From contig NZ_BSNS01000002.1 in NCBI RefSeq assembly GCF_030160115.1, forward strand, positions 1 through 64,000: 64,000 nucleotides of DNA, given 5' to 3'. A program made the translations under genes and the position numbers. Below the pieces are notes generated by a model. The model worked only from the letters and a program-made list of their open reading frames with translations, ran no database searches and was not told where the DNA came from. Of the stretch, positions 485 through 10,906 are shown piece by piece (the stretch's first letter is position 1; the number at the start of each line of letters is the position of its first letter). The stretch is from Devosia nitrariae. Its GTDB lineage: Bacteria > Pseudomonadota > Alphaproteobacteria > Rhizobiales > Devosiaceae.

Positions 485-1903
485 TCACTGGCCGGCCAGA
501 TGCTTCTTGAGCGTCAGATGGTCGATCTTGGATCGATGGCGACGATCGAGTGGAATTCGGGCGAGGGGCACCACCATATCGACACCAAACGCCGAAGCCG
601 CTTCCTGCCAGGCGGGCAAACAGGCTGCATCACCCTCCACCGCCAAGACCGACCGCCCCTCGAGTGCTACCAGAGCGGACCGCCTCACACCCGGCCAGAA
701 GCGTGATGGAGCTTCCACCTCGAAGGGATAGAGCCCGGCGCAGTGTCCGGAGATCCGGCCGCGCAGCCACAGCATGCCATCCGCATCGAGCCGACCGGCA
801 TCGCCGGTGCGGTGCCAGATGACGCCATCGATGTTGCGCTTGTTGTCGGCGTCGCCCTCGCCTCCGAGATAGCCTTTGTTGACGTGGTCGCCGCTGACCA
901 GGATCTCGTCATCGAACAGCTTCAGGCCTATGGAGGCAACGGGGCGACCCGCCAGCAGCCCCGCTCCGGTTTTCATGGCGGTCCACTGGGCAGCCGATAT
1001 TGCGCTGGCCGGCTGCCAGGCGATCGGCTCGGCCTCGGTCGACCCATAGACGGAAACGACGTCCGCCCCCGGGGGCATGGCACTCCCAAGCCGTTCGATC
1101 AGATCGGGAAACACCGGGCCGCCGCCGGTGAACAGCGTCTGCAACGGCAGGGCACCGGCTCCGGCCAGGACCTCCCCGATCGACGGCGGCACGAGTGCGC
1201 GGGTGACCTTCTGACCGACCATCAGCCGCAGCATATCGGCGTCTCGGGCTTGGTCCGGCCGGCGCAGGCGCCAGTTCGGCAGCACCGAGGTGGTGCCGCG
1301 CTTAAGGTTGGCGATGACGAAGACCGGGAAGGCGACGAGGTCCACCTCGTCCTGGCGCTGCGGCGCGATGAGTGGATCGAGCGCCGCGTCCTGGGCAGCG
1401 AGGAACCCGTGGGTGCGCACGATCGCCTTGGGCTTGCCGGTCGAGCCGCTGGTGAAGGAGATCAGTGCCGGATGGTCCGCTTCCACACTCGTCAGTAGGT
1501 CGCCGACCATGCCGTCGTCCAACCCCAGATGCAGTCCGATCCTCCAGAGCTCGGGAACCGCGAGGCGTACCAGGCCGTAGGCACCCGATGTCAGCAATGC
1601 GCGCGGCTGCGTCATGCGCACGGCGTGGCGCAGACCCGCAAACCCCAATGCCGGTTCGGGAAAGACGATAGAGGCGCCCAGCCGCCACAGCCCGGCAATC
1701 GCGGCGTAAAGATCGATGCCGACCGGCATCGCCACCAGCACGCGATCCCCTGGGCGCAGCCCGGCCCGATGCCAGCCCTGCGCCAGCGCTCCCGACCGCC
1801 GTGCGAGTTGGGAAAAGCTGATCGTTTCACCAGGACCTGCCACGATTGCAGTCCGCTCGCCGTGCCGCTCAGCGGTGTCGAGGAAGGAGGCGATGAGGTT
1901 CAT
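485..1903 (-). CDS. AMP-dependent acyl-CoA synthetase/ligase (last gene of the seven-gene lipid operon)
   Basis: A 472-residue member of the ANL adenylating superfamily, which activates a carboxylic acid as acyl-AMP and usually passes it to CoA. The P-loop TSGSTGKPKA is at 151-160, the A5-type motif VYGSTEAEP near 285-293, the ATP-ribose motif HRTGDAGRLD at 364-373, and the C-terminal lysine motif DRRHRSKID at 453-461. The protein is short for a fatty acyl-CoA ligase. The RH.SKID ending recalls the OleC-type fatty-acid ligases, although I cannot assign it there firmly. It begins 3 nt after the GNAT-like gene stop, so it is very probably cotranscribed. The substrate is unknown; in context it may supply the thioester reduced by the HMG-CoA-reductase-like enzyme. 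Confidence 0.85.
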   Translation of the reverse strand: MNLIASFLDTAERHGERTAIVAGPGETISFSQLARRSGALAQGWHRAGLRPGDRVLVAMPVGIDLYAAIAGLWRLGASIVFPEPALGFAGLRHAVRMTQPRALLTSGAYGLVRLAVPELWRIGLHLGLDDGMVGDLLTSVEADHPALISFTSGSTGKPKAIVRTHGFLAAQDAALDPLIAPQRQDEVDLVAFPVFVIANLKRGTTSVLPNWRLRRPDQARDADMLRLMVGQKVTRALVPPSIGEVLAGAGALPLQTLFTGGGPVFPDLIERLGSAMPPGADVVSVYGSTEAEPIAWQPASAISAAQWTAMKTGAGLLAGRPVASIGLKLFDDEILVSGDHVNKGYLGGEGDADNKRNIDGVIWHRTGDAGRLDADGMLWLRGRISGHCAGLYPFEVEAPSRFWPGVRRSALVALEGRSVLAVEGDAACLPAWQEAASAFGVDMVVPLARIPLDRRHRSKIDHLTLKKHLAGQ

Positions 1904-1906
1904 CGC

Positions 1907-2746
1907 CTAGAGCCTGCGTCCCATCAGGGCGTAGCGCCGGAAGATGCGCGCGTTGTGGCGGGCGCTGCGCTCGCTGGATATGTTGGTTTCGTGCATGAGG
2001 GCGTGGATCACCTCCTCATAGCCCATGTCCAAGGCGCGCCGATGATACTGATCGGCCAGCACATGCCCGACACCGCGCAGCCCGCTCGCATAGGTTTTGA
2101 GCACGGCGGCGGGCTTTTCGCCACCTAGCCGATCGGGAAAGCCGAAGAGGAAGCCGACGAGATCGCCCGACCCGTTATGCGCAAAAAGGATATGGCGCGG
2201 GTCGAGCATCGGCAGGATAGGACGATAGAGATCGAGAAACGCCTCGAGCCCGATCGGTTTGAAGAAATGGTTGCCCGCGAAGGCCTGTCCCGACACGGCA
2301 AAGAGGCGTGCGATCAGCTGTTCGGCGCCGGTGCCGTCCCAGGCCGTTACCGACACGCCTTCCATGCGCACCGGCTCGGCCCCGATTGTGTCGACGAGCC
2401 GGGCACGCGCGGAGAGGTAATTCGATATCGGCTCGAACCCCACGGCAACCAACGCGGCGTGATCATATCGGCCGCTGCGCGGCTCCATGGCGAAGGGGAG
2501 CGAGCCGTCGGACTGGGTGATAGTGCGATAGCTGTGCCAGGTGTCACCGTCCATCGGGCCGATGAGACCGCCGAAGCCCTCGTCCTTCACCTTGCGGATG
2601 GTCTGGCTCAGCAGGTCGACGGCGGCATCGGGATCCTCGAATTCCAGGCCTCCAACCGCGGCGCAGGCCAGCCCGCCCCAGGCGGGTGCGTCGCGATGGA
2701 GGCGCAGGGCAGCGCCGGGGCGTGCCACGGTTTCCGGTTCGGTCAT
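1907..2746 (-). CDS. GNAT-fold acyltransferase-like protein of the lipid operon
   Basis: A 279-residue cytosolic protein. The signature GPMDGDTWHSYR near residues 63-74 and the C-terminal NISSERSARHNARIFRRY stretch match a group of GNAT-superfamily proteins of unknown substrate; the latter is the usual last helix and strand of a GNAT domain. The ATG at 2746 overlaps the upstream kinase stop by 4 nt (ATGA), which fixes the start over longer in-frame possibilities. In the operon it might N-acylate an amino group, for example on an aminocarboxypropyl head group made by the BtaA-like enzyme; this is inference only. The N-terminal half is not recognisable beyond the fold. Confidence 0.7.
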   Translation of the reverse strand: MTEPETVARPGAALRLHRDAPAWGGLACAAVGGLEFEDPDAAVDLLSQTIRKVKDEGFGGLIGPMDGDTWHSYRTITQSDGSLPFAMEPRSGRYDHAALVAVGFEPISNYLSARARLVDTIGAEPVRMEGVSVTAWDGTGAEQLIARLFAVSGQAFAGNHFFKPIGLEAFLDLYRPILPMLDPRHILFAHNGSGDLVGFLFGFPDRLGGEKPAAVLKTYASGLRGVGHVLADQYHRRALDMGYEEVIHALMHETNISSERSARHNARIFRRYALMGRRL

Positions 2747-4044
2747 GGCAGCAGAACTCCCTTGAGGCACAGAAACAGCGGCCCGATCATCGCCAGGCCG
2801 AAGAGAGACAGGCTTCGCCGCTGGTCGAACCAGGAAGGACGCAAAAGCGGCAGGACCATAGCGACGATCAGCGCTACGCCGACTTCCGTCGCCGTCGGCA
2901 TGAACCACTGCGAATAAGGCAGATTGACCTCGGCAATCCAAAGCGCCGCGGCGCTTGCTGCTATCGCCGCCGGCACGATGGCGGGGCGCCAATACCCCTT
3001 GAGCGCCACGGCCAGGAACCCCAGCAGGGCGCCGGCAAAGGTGAGGTTGAAGGGGCTGATCACCGACCGGGACATCGCGTCACCGACGAACATCCAGAAC
3101 AGCGATACTATGGCCGCAACGAACAGCAGGTCGAAATCTGGCCGTTTGCTCTTTGAGGGGCGTGACGCCTGTGCGGCCAGGTGCGCGGCGATGGTCAACG
3201 CCGGCAGGATGACATTGTGCAGCGAAACGATCGAGATGATCAGAAAGAGCAAAATGGCATAGGCGCGCGCCGCCTGCAGCGGGATACGCAGCATCGGGGC
3301 AAGCCCCAGCACGGCGCCGAGAAAGAGGACAAACACCGCCGCACTCGCCGCCAGGTCCGCCGGACTGCTGTCCAGGTGTTGAGCGAGCAGCAGAAAAGCG
3401 CCAATGGGCACGAACAGATTATCGAGGCCCCGCCAGGAATCGACCTCGACCAGGGCGCAGAAGGCTGCCACCAGCATCGAGATCAGCACCAGGTTGAGCG
3501 GCGGTGCGTTCGACATCAGCACCAGAACGATGAGGCTGGTGAGCCAGGTGACGACGAAGAAGACGACGACGCCTTCGACGCTTTTGGCCCCGCCCTCCAC
3601 CGCAAAGCGCTGACGCGCATAGACGGTGCCGACCAGCGCTGCGGCGGTGTCGGAAAGGGTGATGACCAGAATGGGGAGGACATAGAGGACCGGCTGCTCC
3701 CCCGCCCGCAGGAAGGTGATGGCGATGGCGAGCGCCAGGTAGATCTCGCCATGGGAGTGGCGCTCGACCCCGTGCAGCGCCGATCCCACCGGACCCAGGA
3801 GACCGCGGCGGATGGCGAACATCAACGGGATGGCGATCGCCAGCAGCACCAGCACCGGCAGCGGGTTGGAGAACAGCAGCGGAAAGGTCAGCGCCAGGCA
3901 GCCGGTCGCCACGTGGACGAGCTTGCGGCTGACCTCGGGATCCCAGCTGAACCGCCGCCCGAGGATCCGCACCAGCAGCATCAAGGCGGGGATGGCAACG
4001 AGAATGGCCGCGATCAGCAAGCCGTCGGCGATCGTCAGGCTCAC
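2743..4044 (-). CDS. Polytopic SEC59/VTE5-like (dolichol/phytol kinase family) membrane protein
   Basis: A 433-residue integral membrane protein with about 12 hydrophobic segments. The N-terminal half has family hallmarks: SRKLVHVATG at 39-48, and DTAAALVG at 132-139 followed by AKSVEGVVVFF at 153-163. These correspond to the CTP-dependent isoprenoid-alcohol kinases (SEC59 dolichol kinase, VTE5 phytol kinase) and the related phosphatidate cytidylyltransferases. The second half (after about residue 225) is an additional membrane domain that I cannot name. The start is GTG at 4044, overlapping the BtaA-like stop by 4 nt. Expected chemistry is phosphorylation of a lipid alcohol at the membrane. 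Its presence with UbiA and an HMG-CoA-reductase-like enzyme points to isoprenoid-lipid metabolism. Confidence 0.75.
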   Translation of the reverse strand: MSLTIADGLLIAAILVAIPALMLLVRILGRRFSWDPEVSRKLVHVATGCLALTFPLLFSNPLPVLVLLAIAIPLMFAIRRGLLGPVGSALHGVERHSHGEIYLALAIAITFLRAGEQPVLYVLPILVITLSDTAAALVGTVYARQRFAVEGGAKSVEGVVVFFVVTWLTSLIVLVLMSNAPPLNLVLISMLVAAFCALVEVDSWRGLDNLFVPIGAFLLLAQHLDSSPADLAASAAVFVLFLGAVLGLAPMLRIPLQAARAYAILLFLIISIVSLHNVILPALTIAAHLAAQASRPSKSKRPDFDLLFVAAIVSLFWMFVGDAMSRSVISPFNLTFAGALLGFLAVALKGYWRPAIVPAAIAASAAALWIAEVNLPYSQWFMPTATEVGVALIVAMVLPLLRPSWFDQRRSLSLFGLAMIGPLFLCLKGVLLP

Positions 4045-5138
4045 CGCACCCGCTCCACGACGAAGTCGGAATAGAAGAAGGCCTTGTCGTGCGCCTTGCC
4101 CGCCGCCTCGACGGCCTCGAGCCGTTCGACCCGGCCGGCCCATTGGCGTGGCGCGCGCCGCGGCACCATCATGTTCCAGTAGACCAGCCGCGCGCCGGGT
4201 TTCGCCGCTTCAAGGATCGCGCCATAGACGGACGCGAACACGTCCTCGTCCATATATTCGAAGATGTCGGAGAGGTTGAAACCGTCAGCCTTCTCGCCGG
4301 TGGCAACGAACGCCTCCAGCGCGCCGCAGCGCAGCTCGAGCCGGTCGACGCGGTCGCGGATGGTGTCGAAATGTTCCGCCCGCCACGCCAGCGGCAACGC
4401 CGTCCCGTGGTCGCCCTTCAATATCCAGTGCAGATAGGGGTTGTCCGCGGGGTCGAGGTCCACCCCGGCATGGCGCAGCCGGCGGGCGACGTGGTCGGCG
4501 AGGGACCCTTCGACATGATCGAAGAAGGCCGGATCGCGTCCCAACCACCCCATGACGGCATTGGAAAAGAACAGCGTCAGCGCCAGCCGCCAGCGCCAGT
4601 TGTTCCAGCGCCGATCGAAGAACGCCTCGCGTTCGGATTTCGGCTTGGAGCGGAACACCTCGTCGATCGCGGCGCGGCTCTGCGCCAAAGGCAGGATATA
4701 GGTGCGAAAGAGCCGGAAATAGTTCTCGAACTTGCCGACGCCACCCAACCCTTGGGCGATGACGTCATCGCGCCGCGCCGACCAGAAAGCTTGGTCGGAT
4801 GTGTCGAGCCCGGCTGCAACCTCGCTCAGGAGCTCGCCACGGCGCGTAGAGCGACGCGACCCCATCAATTCCAGAAAACCGGGGTGGTCGAGCCGTTTGT
4901 AGGCGGCGATGCGGATGGACAGGCATGCGATCTGGGCCGGCGACAGATCGATCGCCACGACCCGCGCCGGATCGAGCAGCAGCATGGCCAGTGCATTGTC
5001 GCCGGCCGAGGCGATCGAGACCAGGGTGGCGCCCGGCGAGTTCGCCAGGGCCTCCACCAGCACATCGGCATCTTCCCACAGCTGGGCATAGCGGATGTCG
5101 TCGAACCGAGCACGGCCGGCTATATCGGCACCAGTCAT
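4041..5138 (-). CDS. BtaA-like (DUF3419) S-adenosylmethionine 3-amino-3-carboxypropyl transferase
   Basis: A 365-residue protein of the DUF3419/BtaA family. BtaA transfers the 3-amino-3-carboxypropyl group of SAM to diacylglycerol, the first step to betaine lipids. The Rossmann nucleotide-binding motif VSIASAGDNAL at 40-50 followed by VVAIDLSPAQ at 60-69 is the family hallmark, and GFNLSDIFEYM near residue 290 fits the C-terminal conserved block. It is shorter than typical BtaA (about 400 residues). No BtaB-type N-methyltransferase is adjacent, so a trimethylated betaine lipid is not implied. The ATG at 5138 overlaps the dikinase stop by 4 nt. The acceptor could be diacylglycerol or a product of the neighbouring isoprenoid enzymes. 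Confidence 0.78.
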   Translation of the reverse strand: MTGADIAGRARFDDIRYAQLWEDADVLVEALANSPGATLVSIASAGDNALAMLLLDPARVVAIDLSPAQIACLSIRIAAYKRLDHPGFLELMGSRRSTRRGELLSEVAAGLDTSDQAFWSARRDDVIAQGLGGVGKFENYFRLFRTYILPLAQSRAAIDEVFRSKPKSEREAFFDRRWNNWRWRLALTLFFSNAVMGWLGRDPAFFDHVEGSLADHVARRLRHAGVDLDPADNPYLHWILKGDHGTALPLAWRAEHFDTIRDRVDRLELRCGALEAFVATGEKADGFNLSDIFEYMDEDVFASVYGAILEAAKPGARLVYWNMMVPRRAPRQWAGRVERLEAVEAAGKAHDKAFFYSDFVVERVR

Positions 5139-7594
5139 GGCAGTTTCCGCACCTGACCGGTGGCGCCGTCCACCTCGATGGTCTCGCCGTCCTCGATCCA
5201 GTCCATTGCCCCCTTGAGGCCGACGACGCAGGGAATGCCCAGCTCCCGCGCGACGATGGCCGAATGCGACAGCAGGCTGCCGCGTTCGACGACGATGGCC
5301 GCGGCATTGCTGAAAATGGCGATCCAACCGGGATCGGTATGACGCGCCACCAGGATCTCCCCGCGCTGCAGACCCTCTGCCCGTGGATCGCGCACCACCC
5401 GCGCCACCGCGGTGATCCTGCCGGCACTGCACCCCGTACCACGCCGCTCGCGGGCCGTATCGTGCTCGCGCGGTCCCGCCGGCACCAGCGAGCGCAAACC
5501 GGCAACTGCGCCACCGCGCACCAGCAGGCGCTCGCCGGGATCGGGACGCGCCTCCGCTGCCGCTGCCTCCTGCTTACGCAACCGCACGATGGCCGCCAGG
5601 TCCTGGTCGACTGCAAAGCCTTCAATGGCGCCCAGCACTTCTGCGATGGTGAGGAAAAAGACGTCGTCCTCGGCCTCGATCAGGCCCTCAGCGTAGAACT
5701 GCCTGCCAGCGGCCCGCAGCAGATGCCGTGCCCGCCCGAAGATGCGGGTGCGTTCGAACCGCAGATTCTCTCGGTCACGCACCCGGCGCTTCGCCCAGCC
5801 CAACGCCAGGCCGGCAACGGCACGGCGCACGGGCCTGCCCGCAAAGAGCTGGGCCAGCGTAACGTGTTGCGCCGAAGGCCCCGACTTTTCCGCCGGCGCT
5901 TCGGCCGCCGCCGCGATAGCGCGATAAAGCGGCGACGGATCGCGGTCGAGGGTTACGCTTTCGAGCTTGAGCTCCTCGGTACAGCGCTCGGAGAATTTGG
6001 CAAGATAGTCGTCAACAGCCTCTCCCAGGACCGGCATGGTCTCGAGCCGGTCGCCGCGCCCGTCCGCAAGGGCCACGCGCAGCTCCGCATCGGCCGCGGC
6101 GAGCCGCCCCATGGACTGGATGCGGCGAGCCGGCTCGGCCGAGATCATGTCGCCCTGCCCAATCATGATCTCATTGTGGAGGTCGAGCCCGGCAGGACCT
6201 GCCCAGCGCTCGAGCAGTTTGCGCGAGGCGCCGAAGGCGATCATGCAGAGAAAGTCGTTGACGAGCGGCGCATCCCACCGGTCGAGGAGGTCCGCCTCGA
6301 TCCGTCGGTAACGTGCGACAAGAGCGGATGCGGGCAGGCTATCATAGCTCGCCGCCGGCTCCGACAAGGCATCATTGAGCCGCCGGTAAAAATCCTTGAT
6401 GGTCGCATTGAGGCGCAACGCCGCCCAGCCGAGGCGCAGCCCGACAGCGGCGACGCGCAGCCCCTCGCTAAGGCGCGCCAGGGCTCCGGCCGGTGGTGGC
6501 GCCATGGCGGCGACGAACTCGGCCGGCAGGGGCTCGTTGACCCCCATCATCGTTTCCATATAACCGCGATTGGCGGAAAAGCCCGGCAGCAGCGCCAAAG
6601 CACGGTACCAGTTGCCGAGATTGTAGTAGACCCTGCCGTCGATGCGCGAGAGCATGTTGTCGAACACGGCCGCGTTCTCGCGCACCACGTCCTCGCGGAC
6701 CCCGACAAGCCGCACGAAGGCGCGATAGACCCGCGCATAGGCGTATTGGGCGAAACTATAGGTCAGCGGCGAGACGAGTCCGGGATAGCTTTCGACGATA
6801 TTGGAATTGTCGAAGACCAATAGGGTGTCGTCGTTGACCGGCGGCACGCGCAGCCTCGTGGTGATGGGCCGGGCCTGCAGCAGAAGCAGGCGCTCGCCCT
6901 CGAACGCCCATTCAAAATCCTGCGGACCACCCAGCGCGGTCTCGAGTTTCTGGCTGAGGTCAGAAAGAGCCTGCAGGTCGTTCCGGGTCAGCACCGCATC
7001 TTCCGGCATGGCGGCGACGGCGCCCGTAGCCTTGTCCATGTCATAAGTCTGGCCGTCCTCCTCGCCACCGACGAGCCGGTCCCCGAGGCCCTCAATAGCC
7101 GAAACGACGATCCGGTCGGTCCGGCCGCTGACCGGATCGGCGGTGAATGCCACACCAGCGCAGCGGGCATCGACCATCTGCTGGACCAGCACCGCCGGCA
7201 GGCCGCCATCGCTAGCGAGCCCTTGCGCAGCCCGATATCCGGCGACATTGTCTGCAAGTCCGCTGGCGAGCACGCGGGCCGCCGCCTGCGGGACATCGCC
7301 GGCTATAACCTCCAGCACCGACAGGAATTGACCGGCATGGGAATGGCTCTTGCCATCCTCCTCGCGCGCCGAAGAACGGACGGCATAGGGTCCGGGGCCC
7401 AGTTGCGGCAGTTTGCCGATCAAGGCGGCAGCCTGCTCATCGGCAAGCTTGCGATCTGCGAAGGCGTCAGGCGTCACCACCAGGAAGGCGGGAACATCGA
7501 AACCCATCTCCACCAGATCCATCAACACCGCAGCCTTGCCGCCAACGACCTGCGCAGTCCGGGCGGGGCTCATGTCATGAAACCGCTCGGTCAT
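5135..7594 (-). CDS. PEP-synthase/rifampin-phosphotransferase-like ATP dikinase
   Basis: An 819-residue enzyme with the domain order of rifampin phosphotransferase. An N-terminal PPDK-type ATP-grasp domain carries AVRSSAREED at 71-80, AGVAFTADPVSG at 146-157 and FEWAFEGERLLLLQARPIT at 227-245. A variable middle domain covers about 250-690. A C-terminal swivelling histidine domain carries GSLLSHSAIVARELGIPCVV, with the phospho-acceptor at about His777. There is no C-terminal PEP/pyruvate barrel, so this is not a classical PEP synthase. Such enzymes split ATP to AMP and Pi and move the beta-phosphate to a hydroxyl. The middle domain, which sets acceptor choice, gives no clue. The ATG at 7594 overlaps the UbiA stop by 4 nt. 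Confidence 0.82.
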   Translation of the reverse strand: MTERFHDMSPARTAQVVGGKAAVLMDLVEMGFDVPAFLVVTPDAFADRKLADEQAAALIGKLPQLGPGPYAVRSSAREEDGKSHSHAGQFLSVLEVIAGDVPQAAARVLASGLADNVAGYRAAQGLASDGGLPAVLVQQMVDARCAGVAFTADPVSGRTDRIVVSAIEGLGDRLVGGEEDGQTYDMDKATGAVAAMPEDAVLTRNDLQALSDLSQKLETALGGPQDFEWAFEGERLLLLQARPITTRLRVPPVNDDTLLVFDNSNIVESYPGLVSPLTYSFAQYAYARVYRAFVRLVGVREDVVRENAAVFDNMLSRIDGRVYYNLGNWYRALALLPGFSANRGYMETMMGVNEPLPAEFVAAMAPPPAGALARLSEGLRVAAVGLRLGWAALRLNATIKDFYRRLNDALSEPAASYDSLPASALVARYRRIEADLLDRWDAPLVNDFLCMIAFGASRKLLERWAGPAGLDLHNEIMIGQGDMISAEPARRIQSMGRLAAADAELRVALADGRGDRLETMPVLGEAVDDYLAKFSERCTEELKLESVTLDRDPSPLYRAIAAAAEAPAEKSGPSAQHVTLAQLFAGRPVRRAVAGLALGWAKRRVRDRENLRFERTRIFGRARHLLRAAGRQFYAEGLIEAEDDVFFLTIAEVLGAIEGFAVDQDLAAIVRLRKQEAAAAEARPDPGERLLVRGGAVAGLRSLVPAGPREHDTARERRGTGCSAGRITAVARVVRDPRAEGLQRGEILVARHTDPGWIAIFSNAAAIVVERGSLLSHSAIVARELGIPCVVGLKGAMDWIEDGETIEVDGATGQVRKLP

Positions 7595-8541
7595 GGTGCA
7601 ATTACCTGTGGCAGGAAGGGCGCGAAGCCGGCGAGCACATAGCAGGCCAGAACCCAGACGCCGGCAAGGGTGTCGATGCGGCGCTGCACCGCTTGCGTGG
7701 GTTTGCGCATGAAAGTTCGCACGGTTGTGGCAATGGCGGCGAGGACAACGGCGCTCCCCCCGCCCACGATCAAGGGCGATCCGACCATGGCGCCGACCGC
7801 GAGGAGAAGCAGCCAGGCGACCACGCATGTCGCCAGCCAAAGCCGGGCTGCTCGGTCATGTCCAAGTAGCGCGGAATAGGTCTCGACCCCAGGCCGCTCA
7901 CTTTCTGGCGCCCACGTCTTGCGCCCAATCTCCAGCACGCAGCCGTTGATGAGGCTCAGCGCCAGGAACGCCCACATGCCGGCCGGCGGCAACAGGCTGT
8001 GGGGCACCCACTCAGCTCCGGTCAGGTAGAGATCGATCAGCGCCATGATCGCCATGTGCGACACGAGGTAAACGAAGGGCCGCGCCTTGAGCCACGCGGG
8101 CATGAAGAACTCGGCCGTCATCAATCCCAGCCACACCCAGACCAGCGCCAGCGGCACCAGCAGCGCCGGAGTGATGGTCAAGGTGAGCGCAATGGCCGGC
8201 ACCACCGCCAAAGCGGCAATCGAGAGGATCAGCCGCAGGCTGACCAGGCCCGAGGGAATCGGTCGCTCCGGCCGGTAGGCCCGATCATCCTCGAGGTCCT
8301 TGTATTCGTCGCAGGCACGCAACTGAAAAAAGAAGATCACGGCGACCAGCCAGGCCGCCGCGAAGATGCTGAGGTGCGGCAGCGGCCTCTCGGCAAGATG
8401 CGCCGAGACACTGATGCTCGAGGCCGAGAAGGCCGCGAGCAGCAGCGCCGTCCTGCCCAGCGGAAAACGCTCGGCCTGGTAGAGCCAGAGGCGCTGCCAG
8501 AGGCTCGCCGAGGCCTGCGGATGGGTCGCTGCCACCGGCAT
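7591..8541 (-). CDS. UbiA-family prenyltransferase
   Basis: A 316-residue membrane protein with about eight hydrophobic helices. UbiA enzymes transfer a prenyl group to an aromatic or other acceptor using Mg2+ held by two acidic motifs. Here the first motif is CDEYKDLEDD near 78-87 and the second is EIGRKTWAPESERPGVETYS near 204-223, where a Glu replaces the usual first Asp. That second motif resembles a UbiA subgroup distinct from ubiquinone-pathway UbiA and from the haem-pathway CtaB elsewhere in this window. ATG at 8541 shares its A with the reductase stop (TGATG); a GTG one codon upstream is possible. Donor and acceptor are unknown. Confidence 0.85.
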   Translation of the reverse strand: MPVAATHPQASASLWQRLWLYQAERFPLGRTALLLAAFSASSISVSAHLAERPLPHLSIFAAAWLVAVIFFFQLRACDEYKDLEDDRAYRPERPIPSGLVSLRLILSIAALAVVPAIALTLTITPALLVPLALVWVWLGLMTAEFFMPAWLKARPFVYLVSHMAIMALIDLYLTGAEWVPHSLLPPAGMWAFLALSLINGCVLEIGRKTWAPESERPGVETYSALLGHDRAARLWLATCVVAWLLLLAVGAMVGSPLIVGGGSAVVLAAIATTVRTFMRKPTQAVQRRIDTLAGVWVLACYVLAGFAPFLPQVIAP

Positions 8542-9800
8542 CACCGCAGCCGCGCCAGTTTGGCATGGGCACGGGTGAAATGGCCCGCGGCGATGGCGGC
8601 GATGATGGAGATCTCACCGCAAAGGCAGAGCGCCCCGACCACTTCGGCGAGCGCTGCAGCCTTGCCCGCGCCCTTGAGCCCCATCAGCCCCAGCGCCGCC
8701 GACTGGCTCGGCAAGCCGGTGCCGCCGCCGACCGATCCCACCACGATGTTGGGCATGGTGACCGAGAAGAATATCGACCCGTCGCGCCGCTCCGCCCGGG
8801 TGAAGCCGACCGCCGACTCTGCGACGCACGCCGCATCCTGGCCCGTGGCGATATAGAGTGCCGCCAGGCCATTGGCATAATGGGCCTGCGTCCCCAGCTG
8901 ACCGCTGAGGGTGGAACCGAGCGCTGCCACCCGCCCATAGGCCAGCATCGCCTCGGGCTCGACATGCAGGCATTTGCGGATCAGGCCGTCCGGCAGCTCG
9001 ATGCTTGCGGTCACCTTGCGGCCCCGGCCCATGTGCAGGCCAAGATAGGATGCCTTCTTGTCGCCCGAGAAATTGCCTTCAATGAACCAGTGGCGCGGCT
9101 TGACCGGTCCGTGTTCGATGATATGGGCGCACAACGCCTGCGTCGCGACGGTCACCATGTTCTGGCCTGCCGCATCGCCCGTGCTGTAGCGGCAGATGAG
9201 GAACACCGTGTCGCTATCCATGAATGGTTCGATGGTAACGAGCTTGCCATGCCGCGTCGTCGCCTCGGCCACGGTTCTCAGCGTTTCGGCATTGCCGGCG
9301 ACCCAGTCGATGAAACGACCCGCCTGCACCATATCGGCAAAGACGAAGGCGGGCGTGCGCAGCACCCCCTCCCCGATCATCGCCGAGGTAACGCCGCCGG
9401 CCTGAGCGGTCACTTCCATGCCGCGTCCGTAGGATGCCACCAGGGCCGCCTCGGTGGTGGCGAGCGGGACGTAATAATCCCCGACGGCGTTGAGGCCATT
9501 GATGCGCAGCGGCCCGACGACGCCCACCGGAAGTTTCACCGTACCGATGAAGTTCTCGATGTTGCGCCCATAGGTTTCGGCCAGCGCCAGACTTTCAGTG
9601 TCGGCGATGGCATCTTCATCCTCGGCGCGCGCCGAGCTCTGGGCCCGCAACTGCGTCCACAGGGCCCGGGCCGTTTCGGCGCTCGCCTTCTGGCGCGGCC
9701 GGATGCGCGCCGGCAATTGGCGTTCGGCCGACGCCGCCAGCTGTGCGGAAAAATCGGTGTGTTCGGAACGGCTGCGCAACCGCTCCAGCATGCGCAGCAC
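8541..9800 (-). CDS. Class I-type HMG-CoA reductase-like enzyme (first gene of the lipid operon)
   Basis: A 419-residue protein carrying the HMG-CoA reductase hallmarks: ENFIGTVKLPVGVVGPL at 82-98, catalytic Glu in TTEAALVAS (E117), nucleotide-motif DAAGQN at 209-214, catalytic Lys in GDKKA (K248), catalytic Asp in IATGQD (D322), GSVGGGTGLPSQSA at 355-368, and catalytic His in AAGHF (H407). The motif spellings follow the eukaryotic/archaeal class I enzymes rather than the class II (mevalonate-degrading) type. Known chemistry is a four-electron reduction of a thioester to an alcohol. No other mevalonate-pathway gene is in the window. The start is uncertain: GTG at 9800 or ATG at 9791, both poorly placed relative to the only good ribosome binding site. 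Confidence 0.88.
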   Translation of the reverse strand: MLRMLERLRSRSEHTDFSAQLAASAERQLPARIRPRQKASAETARALWTQLRAQSSARAEDEDAIADTESLALAETYGRNIENFIGTVKLPVGVVGPLRINGLNAVGDYYVPLATTEAALVASYGRGMEVTAQAGGVTSAMIGEGVLRTPAFVFADMVQAGRFIDWVAGNAETLRTVAEATTRHGKLVTIEPFMDSDTVFLICRYSTGDAAGQNMVTVATQALCAHIIEHGPVKPRHWFIEGNFSGDKKASYLGLHMGRGRKVTASIELPDGLIRKCLHVEPEAMLAYGRVAALGSTLSGQLGTQAHYANGLAALYIATGQDAACVAESAVGFTRAERRDGSIFFSVTMPNIVVGSVGGGTGLPSQSAALGLMGLKGAGKAAALAEVVGALCLCGEISIIAAIAAGHFTRAHAKLARLR

Positions 9801-9925: not shown

Positions 9926-10798
9926 TCACCCGCCTGCGTTTGCGGGATGCATGTCTTCGGCGTTGACGCCTGCCCAATGCGTGGCGAGGGCAGCACTGAA
10001 TTCTTCGGGCATGTCGAAATTGGAGCAATGGCCGCCGAACGGCAGGTCGACGCGCCGGAAATTCGCCCTGCCGGCAAACTTGCCGATGTCGGCCTTGAGG
10101 CCGAGGTTGACCGCATGGTCGCGCCCGCCCCACAGCACCAGCAGCGGCCGGTTGAAAGCCAGGGCATTGGCAACGAAATCATAGTTGCGCACATTGGCGG
10201 CAATGGCGGCGCCGGCCTCGACGTTGAATTGCGCGATGGCCGCCGCTATGGCCCGACGGCCCGCAGGGTTGCCGGTCGTAGTCAGCGCAGTGATCCATCC
10301 GGTTACGCCTGCGCCCGGCAGGAAGGTGAGACGCAGCACCTGCGACACCCGGGCCGGCAGGTTCATGGAAAAGCAGGTTCCAAACAGCGTCAGGGTTCGG
10401 ATGCGGTCACGATGGGCCGTCCCCAGCAGGTACAGCGCCAGGATGCCCCCCAACGAATTGCCCACCCAGTGGACCTCCCGCGCACCGGCATGATCCAGCA
10501 CTTCGATCATGTCGGCCGCCATGACCGCCGGAGCGAAATCGGCTTTCTGGATCGATCCCTGCGGCACGCCCGAAGCGCCGTGACCGCGCAGGTCCGGCAC
10601 CAGCACCCGGTACCCCTGGCGGGCAAAACGCAATGCCTCTGCTTCGAACTGCGCCCCGGAAGAGGCCAGCCCATGAACCAGAAACACATCGGCGCGCGCC
10701 GCGCTGGAAGGCAGATATTCCCGGTAGACCAGCGGCACGCTTCCGGCGCCGGTCACCTGATGAAGATGGATGGCGACAGCACCCTCGGCGTCGAGCAT
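9926..10798 (-). CDS. Alpha/beta hydrolase
   Basis: A 290-residue alpha/beta-hydrolase-fold protein without a signal peptide. The oxyanion motif HGLASSG is near residue 42, the nucleophile elbow GNSLGG is near 112, the acid is in GGRDH, and the catalytic His is in GGHCSNFD near the C-terminus, so the triad is complete. The start ATG at 10798 is chosen because GGGAG lies 5 nt upstream; a GTG two codons earlier overlaps that site. It ends 125 bp before the reductase-like gene on the same strand, so it may be transcribed with the lipid operon or only sit upstream. The substrate is unknown. Confidence 0.85.
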   Translation of the reverse strand: MLDAEGAVAIHLHQVTGAGSVPLVYREYLPSSAARADVFLVHGLASSGAQFEAEALRFARQGYRVLVPDLRGHGASGVPQGSIQKADFAPAVMAADMIEVLDHAGAREVHWVGNSLGGILALYLLGTAHRDRIRTLTLFGTCFSMNLPARVSQVLRLTFLPGAGVTGWITALTTTGNPAGRRAIAAAIAQFNVEAGAAIAANVRNYDFVANALAFNRPLLVLWGGRDHAVNLGLKADIGKFAGRANFRRVDLPFGGHCSNFDMPEEFSAALATHWAGVNAEDMHPANAGG

Positions 10799-10906
10799 GA
10801 CCACTCCCAGTTCGATCCCTACCCCTCTTACCGATAGTTACGAGAGGCCGGACGGACAAGGGGAGCCGATCAGAAACCCGTCCACTTGCATGGCAGAGCA
10901 TCATCA

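Follow-up and report, generated by a model that had tools for sequence, protein, structure and literature searches.

A co-inherited seven-gene operon of Devosia nitrariae that may direct the synthesis of a specialised amino-acid lipid

Layout of the operon

The first 64,000 nucleotides (nt) of contig NZ_BSNS01000002.1 from Devosia nitrariae, the stretch that we refer to as the window, carry a run of seven co-directional open reading frames on the minus strand, extending from position 9800 down to 485. In order of transcription they encode a member of the HMG-CoA reductase (HMGR) family, a UbiA-family membrane protein, a phosphotransferase resembling phosphoenolpyruvate (PEP) synthase, a DUF3419 protein that would use S-adenosylmethionine (SAM), a polytopic membrane protein that we call gene 5, a GNAT-type protein and an AMP-forming ligase.

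8541..9800, minus strand: gene 1, HMG-CoA-reductase family (class I type), 419 residues from GTG 9800 (PF00368, E 6.7e-106)
7591..8544, minus strand: gene 2, UbiA-family membrane protein (Pfam PF01040, E 1.4e-12)
5135..7594, minus strand: gene 3, PEP-synthase-like phosphotransferase (PPDK_N, E 1.4e-37; PEP-utilizers, E 2.8e-26)
4041..5138, minus strand: gene 4, DUF3419 (BtaA-like) protein, putative SAM-dependent aminocarboxypropyl transferase (PF11899, E 1.4e-60)
2743..4044, minus strand: gene 5, polytopic membrane protein of 433 residues (invariant motifs and predicted structure)
1907..2746, minus strand: gene 6, tandem-GNAT N-acyltransferase-like protein (fold match of an AlphaFold model)
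485..1903, minus strand: gene 7, adenylate-forming acyl ligase (PF00501, E 4.4e-40)

Read directly from the sequence, all six junctions are either overlaps or a 3-nt gap:

8541-8544, minus strand: HMGR/UbiA, TGATG/GTGATG
7591-7594, minus strand: UbiA/phosphotransferase, ATGA
5135-5138, minus strand: phosphotransferase/DUF3419, ATGA
4041-4044, minus strand: DUF3419/gene 5, GTGA
2743-2746, minus strand: gene 5/GNAT, ATGA
1903-1909, minus strand: GNAT/ligase, TAG-gcg-ATG, 3 nt

This arrangement confirms the description in an earlier note on this DNA of a seven-gene overlapping operon with six contact junctions, and it supports the claim made there that the genes are translated together as one unit.

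The seven genes are inherited together

Using the DUF3419 protein as query against one genome per species, we obtained 133 relatives, of which the best 80 were fetched as loci. All seven genes were present in identical order and on the same strand in 71 of the 80, a co-occurrence that is far above chance and that bears out the conserved neighbourhood on which the earlier note had staked its proposal. Eight of the other nine loci are cut short where the contig stops within the operon, and the ninth (L014) does have the DUF3419 gene, which our script mis-assigned; among the 71 we count two loci with split reading frames that are possibly assembly errors, in the ligase of L056 and in three genes of L057.

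The close packing is also conserved, with the proviso that junction counts depend on the start codons picked by the script. A 4-nt overlap is found at the HMGR/UbiA junction in 63 of 73 loci, at UbiA/phosphotransferase in 49 of 76, at DUF3419/gene 5 in 67 of 80 and at gene 5/GNAT in 58 of 78. The phosphotransferase/DUF3419 junction is more variable, its two commonest forms being overlaps of 14 nt (24/80) and 4 nt (22/80), and the GNAT/ligase junction, a 3-nt gap in the window, is most often an 8-nt overlap (44/78).

By their records, the carriers include Devosia, Rhizobium, Bosea, Chelativorans, Hyphomicrobium, Dongia, Paracoccus, many roseobacters and two Halomonas, and one copy lies on a plasmid of Roseinatronobacter sp. 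S2, where the HMGR gene spans the start of the record. Across 69 operons the seven genes diverge in step, their pairwise identities correlating with r of 0.83-0.95, and in a joint tree (support values not printed) the Halomonas copies group with those of Chelativorans; this grouping and the correlated identities favour transfer of the operon as a block.

Presence within a family is patchy. Among 198 species drawn from one family, including the known carrier used as the centre of the sample, 14 have gene 5, and an operon-type HMGR accompanies it in 12 of those 14, the contigs of the other two beginning inside the operon (in one genome, G1037, the HMGR is split over two frames). Two further genomes of the sample have distant HMGRs only, the first within a mevalonate cluster and the second standing by itself. 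From their joint pattern in the 198 species, genes 1 and 5 are all-or-none as well as patchy. In the order of the host, gene 5 occurs in 5 of 297 genomes including the host, and the other four carry all seven genes. The genome scans scored only part of the candidates, and the 198-species and 297-genome samples overlap the 80 loci and so are not independent of them. No fixed genomic neighbourhood was found around the operon when flanks of up to four genes per side were clustered by similarity across the 80 loci.

A reductase with an altered HMG pocket

Gene 1 contains the HMG-CoA_red domain (PF00368, 355 bits) and matches solved HMGR structures by sequence, at 281 bits for PDB 6hr7 and 162 bits for the human enzyme 1dq8, with similarity over about 340 residues. 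The residue counts given here and below rest on 72 to 80 copies, partial proteins having been removed by length. The catalytic residues E117, K248, D322 and H412 (numbered from the GTG), which we take to be equivalent to human E559, K691, D767 and H866, are kept in all 72 copies. The part of the pocket that would hold the HMG carboxylate is altered: E241 replaces the HMG-binding serine in 72/72 copies and the nearby pocket lysine has become arginine (R261) in 69/72. In human HMGR we take these contacts, by role and numbering, to be S684 and K735. Serine and lysine are both retained in human HMGR and in the HMGRs of two mevalonate clusters (L113 and L152, the latter recognised by eye). Among HMGRs outside mevalonate clusters the serine position varies, being aspartate in Vibrio, alanine in Alteromonas and serine in a lone HMGR at L151.

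The host has a single HMGR and a DXS gene, and HMG-CoA synthase was not found in its genome, which together indicate that the operon is not a mevalonate pathway. HMG-CoA synthase was also not found in 24 of 25 operon-bearing genomes by a search whose control matched 4 of 14 known genomes; the remaining carrier, a Shimia (L029), does match it. Judged by these residues and genomes, the operon reductase most likely acts on a thioester other than HMG-CoA.

HMGR-family genes also turned up in several other settings. One lies on a Vibrio fluvialis plasmid (L108, 13914-15176) without adjacent mevalonate genes, and similar genes are present in Photobacterium and other Vibrio records. These Vibrio-type HMGRs are 51-53% identical to the operon HMGR, the paralogue with aspartate at the HMG-serine position (one copy examined) standing at 51%, and their substrate may also be other than HMG-CoA. 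Another HMGR outside a mevalonate context, on Alteromonas macleodii plasmid pBGP9 (L109, 6280-13041), is accompanied by an AMP-binding enzyme, a short-chain dehydrogenase/reductase, an iron-containing redox enzyme and a protein annotated as thermostable hemolysin. On Sinorhizobium medicae plasmid pMl2 (L111, 4920-13123) an HMGR-family gene (36% identity) sits between genes for acyl-CoA carboxylase subunits with an indolepyruvate ferredoxin oxidoreductase gene nearby; nine Sinorhizobium plasmids have HMGR matches, of which this one was inspected.

Two membrane proteins and a phosphotransferase

The UbiA domain of gene 2 scores 47.9 bits against a cut-off of 34.2. Its first aspartate motif (D79, D83, D87) is invariant in 74/74 copies, and its second is replaced in all 74 by EIGRK..APE.E, with E205, K209 and E216 invariant, where the DGGGP synthase 6m31 shows KDFEDMEGD (compared by eye). 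Loss of this second motif makes ordinary prenyl-diphosphate binding doubtful. A scan of 108 genomes with the UbiA model NF010118, seeking further variant clusters, found only the host.

Gene 3 combines an ATP-grasp domain with a phospho-histidine swivel domain, the histidine of which (His777) is kept in 73 of 74 copies with a gap in the last; it scores 641 bits with the NCBIfam model PRK06241.2-2, under the cut-off of 883.

Gene 5 is harder to place. R40, H44, D132, K154 and N209 are invariant in 78/78 copies and fall in the N-terminal half (about 30-220), in motifs that we presume to be phytol/dolichol-kinase-like; the C-terminal part consists of extra helices. The AlphaFold model is helical and confident (predicted local distance difference test, pLDDT, 91.9). 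The window protein matches no Pfam family, even with E allowed up to 1, and no NCBIfam family, and no solved structure matches it, or the DUF3419 protein, by sequence at E up to 1. A fold search gave a weak match to CDP-diacylglycerol (CDP-DAG) synthetase 4q2e (Z 8.0, rmsd 5.0, 168 residues aligned over 23-226), membrane pyrophosphatases matched at Z 8.9, and Foldseek returned nothing at E up to 0.001. One of 46 gene 5 homologues matches CTP_transf_1, at E 1.5e-4. Two short relatives match the same family below its cut-off (E 0.011 and 0.014), one of which hhalign joins to gene 5 with 96.7%, and such short gene-5-like proteins, found in seven small-genome Alphaproteobacteria with no other operon genes nearby, tie gene 5 weakly to the kinase superfamily.

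The DUF3419 protein, the GNAT and the ligase

The DUF3419 domain of gene 4 (PF11899) scores 206 bits against a cut-off of 28, and the glycine, aspartate and asparagine of its SAGDNAL motif are present in 80/80 copies. Aligned by hhalign, the operon protein matches, with 99.3% probability over 337 columns, a plasmid DUF3419 protein whose gene adjoins one for a SAM methyltransferase, which is the BtaA/BtaB arrangement. The operon protein shares only some 26% identity with this methyltransferase-linked type, so aminocarboxypropyl transfer is assigned to it by family only. In another setting, a DUF3419 gene of Rhizobium plasmid pMK-2 (L087, 5856-12194) is found with genes for a ketoacyl-ACP synthase III, an oxidoreductase, an MBL-fold hydrolase and a CoF synthetase.

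Gene 6 matched no Pfam family with E allowed up to 1, and against solved structures its sequence yielded a single match, at E 0.83. Its AlphaFold model (pLDDT 92.2) has the tandem GNAT fold, aligning with 7q3a (Z 17.4, 246 residues, rmsd 3.7) and mycothiol synthase 2c27 (Z 16.7, 234 residues, rmsd 3.4), and resembles small-molecule N-acyltransferases and N-myristoyltransferase. Gene 7 is an AMP-binding enzyme (PF00501, 138 bits) whose C-terminal Lys459 is kept in 77/77 copies. The nearest curated model, PRK09274, which we take to be OleC-like, gives 233 bits against a cut-off of 478, and the enzyme also falls under the curated cut-offs for OleC beta-lactone synthetases (113 bits against 900 and 104 against 850). 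The tandem GNAT fold and the conserved catalytic residues of the reductase, phosphotransferase and ligase support the reading of these genes in the earlier note.

Neighbouring modules and a reduced variant

Two kinds of module recur beside the operon. The survey called upstream genes in 71 of the 80 loci and downstream genes in 72, and its families were drawn by similarity rather than from individual annotation, seven module proteins being confirmed with Pfam. A sulfotransferase and a cytochrome P450 (P450a), always paired, occur in 16/80 loci, in 15 of them divergent and upstream and in one placed 3 nt downstream. A distinct P450 (P450b) adjoins the operon in 7/80 loci, never alongside the sulfotransferase and P450a; the P450b of L065 is a 90-residue piece only, and the P450 of L029 (30% identical to class a) was kept out of both modules. 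Examples are:

L032 2937-4208: P450a
L056 4006-5121: sulfotransferase
L039 14664-15794: sulfotransferase, downstream
L045 14688-16061: P450b

These modules appear to be alternative tailoring steps, and neither of them is present in the window. ATPases of the ABC transporter type, a broad family, are present in the flanks of 21/80 loci, where neither their position nor their orientation is constant and most stand three or four genes from the operon; apart from these, the P450s and the sulfotransferase, the largest flank cluster covers 5/80 loci.

A variant cluster in an alphaproteobacterial genome (G479), whose order is represented by two genomes in the collection, has part of the same gene set, its members being related to those of the operon:

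L138 6810-13658: phosphotransferase, DUF3419, UbiA, tandem GNAT, then a phosphatidylserine-decarboxylase relative

HMGR, gene 5 and the ligase are not on this 14.9-kb contig, which ends 1.2 kb past the cluster. The decarboxylase relative scores 162 bits with Pfam, above the cut-off, and 296 bits with NCBIfam, below the cut-off of 371. The variant suggests that the phosphotransferase, DUF3419, UbiA and GNAT genes form the core of the operon, and its decarboxylase relative points to a lipid-borne amino acid. An amino-acid lipid, one of the products that the earlier note had envisaged, is made likelier by this one cluster. Two other parts of that proposal have lost ground, namely prenyl transfer by UbiA, given the replaced second motif, and the label of lipid-alcohol kinase for gene 5, given the missing Pfam match and weak fold match of the window protein. 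The proposal did not include the neighbouring P450s and sulfotransferase, the change in the HMG pocket, the missing HMG-CoA synthase or the reduced variant.

A proposed product and its alternatives

From the gene content and order, the co-inheritance, the families, the conserved residues and the neighbouring modules described above, we infer every substrate, product and step order in what follows. Our preferred account, which we give an even chance of being right, is that the seven genes act as one mobile operon for the synthesis of a specialised lipid that is associated with the membrane and carries an N-acylated 3-amino-3-carboxypropyl (homoserine-type) group. The DUF3419 enzyme would move aminocarboxypropyl from SAM onto a lipid hydroxyl, the ligase would activate an acyl group and the tandem GNAT would N-acylate the amine with that group. 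The HMGR-type enzyme would make an alcohol by reducing a CoA thioester that is not HMG-CoA; phosphorylation of alcohols would fall to the phospho-histidine phosphotransferase and the gene 5 membrane protein; and the UbiA-fold enzyme would form a membrane-embedded bond joining a hydrophobic chain to the rest. In some hosts a P450 might then oxidise the product, or a P450 and a sulfotransferase might oxidise and sulfate it. The UbiA-family protein and the helical gene 5 protein fit a membrane lipid.

Several points weigh against this account. The lost second motif of UbiA speaks against ordinary prenyl-diphosphate chemistry, and the kinase label of gene 5 comes from motifs and a weak fold match, with membrane pyrophosphatases ranking as high. 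Aminocarboxypropyl transfer is predicted from membership of the DUF3419 family, and the variant is a single locus on a contig that soon ends. A small secreted natural product could also account for the neighbouring P450s and sulfotransferase, and we know of no operon member for which a product, substrate or enzyme activity has been reported.

The strongest alternative, possible though not probable, is that the operon makes a non-membrane specialised metabolite such as a signal, a siderophore-like compound or an antibiotic, with a lipid tail as mere anchor and with the P450 and sulfotransferase as ordinary tailoring enzymes. The patchy presence (14/198), the Halomonas/Chelativorans grouping, the plasmid copy in Roseinatronobacter sp. 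S2 and the alternative modules all agree with it, as do a PEP-synthase-like protein that adjoins a P450 in a Streptomyces plasmid cluster and the ABC-transporter ATPases in the flanks. However, two polytopic membrane proteins belong to the operon core, the ATPases are scattered and other flank families reach no more than 5/80 loci, and the variant includes a phosphatidylserine-decarboxylase relative.

A bolder reading, which we think unlikely, would be a ceramide-like lipid built without serine palmitoyltransferase. Here a SAM-derived four-carbon amino-acid unit would be placed on a hydrophobic ether chain, and the ligase and HMGR would convert its carboxylate by reduction into a primary alcohol, so that the head would be a 2-amino-alcohol resembling a sphingoid base. 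The GNAT would N-acylate it, gene 5 or the phosphotransferase would phosphorylate it and the P450 and sulfotransferase would decorate it, and the variant would decarboxylate the same carboxylate instead. The invariant glutamate of the reductase would bind the ammonium of the substrate in place of the HMG carboxylate.

Salvage of an isoprenoid alcohol followed by prenylation is likewise doubtful. The ligase and HMGR would make the alcohol from an isoprenoid acid, gene 5 and the phosphotransferase would convert it to the diphosphate and UbiA would transfer it. Plant phytol kinases (VTE5/VTE6) make the diphosphate, gene 5 has phytol-kinase-like motifs, and two candidate phospho-transfer enzymes share one operon with UbiA. 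Yet the second aspartate motif of UbiA is replaced throughout, the variant contig pairs phosphotransferase and UbiA without gene 5, HMGR or ligase, and the scheme does not account for DUF3419 and GNAT.

Supply of mevalonate, with the HMGR drawing on HMG-CoA that leucine breakdown, for instance, might provide and the mevalonate going into isoprenoids or serving as a building block, is improbable, and we rejected it as the main role. The family match (6.7e-106), the fully conserved catalytic tetrad and the HMG-CoA synthase match in Shimia would suit it, whereas that synthase was not found in the host or 24/25 carriers, the host has DXS, and the serine and lysine retained in two mevalonate-cluster HMGRs have given way to glutamate and, mostly, arginine. 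A betaine-lipid (DGTS) pathway of BtaA/BtaB type shares the DUF3419 domain, but we rejected it as the system and consider it very improbable, with no N-methyltransferase among the seven genes (the flanks were not scanned singly for methyltransferases) and with methyltransferase-adjacent DUF3419 genes existing separately in rhizobia.

If the preferred account of an N-acylated amino-acid lipid is true, many Rhodobacterales and Hyphomicrobiales and some Halomonas would make a lipid or lipid-like metabolite that has gone unnoticed. It would also mean that an HMG-CoA reductase has moved, with one invariant residue change, to a new substrate away from isoprenoid supply, and that a UbiA-fold enzyme functions without its second aspartate motif.

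Relation to known systems

BtaA/BtaB betaine-lipid synthesis uses a DUF3419 enzyme and a methyltransferase. The operon resembles it in having a DUF3419 enzyme with a profile match to the methyltransferase-adjacent type, and differs in the low identity, the missing methyltransferase and the six other enzymes. Compared with class I HMG-CoA reductases, gene 1 shares family, similarity and catalytic tetrad, whereas its HMG carboxylate pocket is altered and HMG-CoA synthase is missing. Gene 3 resembles the PEP-synthase-like ligases and phosphotransferases RedH, PigC and rifampicin phosphotransferase in its ATP-grasp and phospho-histidine domains; it lies below the curated cut-off of all 25 models listed, and its partners differ.

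The ornithine, glutamine and sulfur aminolipids of roseobacters (OlsB/GluB with OlsA/SalA) are likewise amino-acid lipids with an N-acyltransferase step, made in Rhodobacteraceae (passages of PMC11631085 and PMC8319176). Passages of the aminolipid review describe PF13444 as common to the aminolipid N-acyltransferases and the N-acyltransferase of the sulfur aminolipid as still unidentified (PMC11631085), and none of the 7 families that 47 operon GNATs match at E up to 1 is PF13444. The sulfur aminolipid uses salA, which is present in all ten roseobacter clades according to passages of PMC8319176, and the operon, found in 14 of 198 species, is therefore a poor candidate for supplying the missing enzyme. 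The main text of the review mentions neither UbiA nor BtaA (PMC11631085). Bacterial ceramide synthesis (Spt, CerS, CerR and AcpR/AasR), as passages of PMC11087976 and PMC11324152 describe it, also pairs a dedicated acyl-activating enzyme with an N-acyltransferase acting on a long-chain amine, but the serine palmitoyltransferase has no counterpart among the seven genes. No description of the operon was found in the titles, abstracts and passages of the open-access literature searched. As far as searched, the gene combination has not been described, and all families except that of gene 5 are recognised by profile or fold.

Upstream boundary and genomic context

Directly upstream of gene 1 and on the same strand lies an alpha/beta hydrolase gene (9926-10804), which we considered and rejected as an operon member because nothing in the fetched loci matches it above 60 bits, a 125 nt gap separates it from gene 1 and a terminator-like hairpin stands at its end:

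9929..9946, minus strand: hairpin resembling a terminator, 3' end of the alpha/beta hydrolase gene (consensus scan)

The hairpin is consistent with an operon that begins after the hydrolase gene, on the weak signal of a scan that found 9 such hairpins with 6.9 expected by chance. The reductase itself may start at ATG 9791 (416 residues) instead of GTG 9800 (419 residues), as most of its homologues start there. The host genome measures 5.54 Mb, and the closest DUF3419 relative in the scan is a protein from a Devosia metagenome-assembled genome, at 83% identity.

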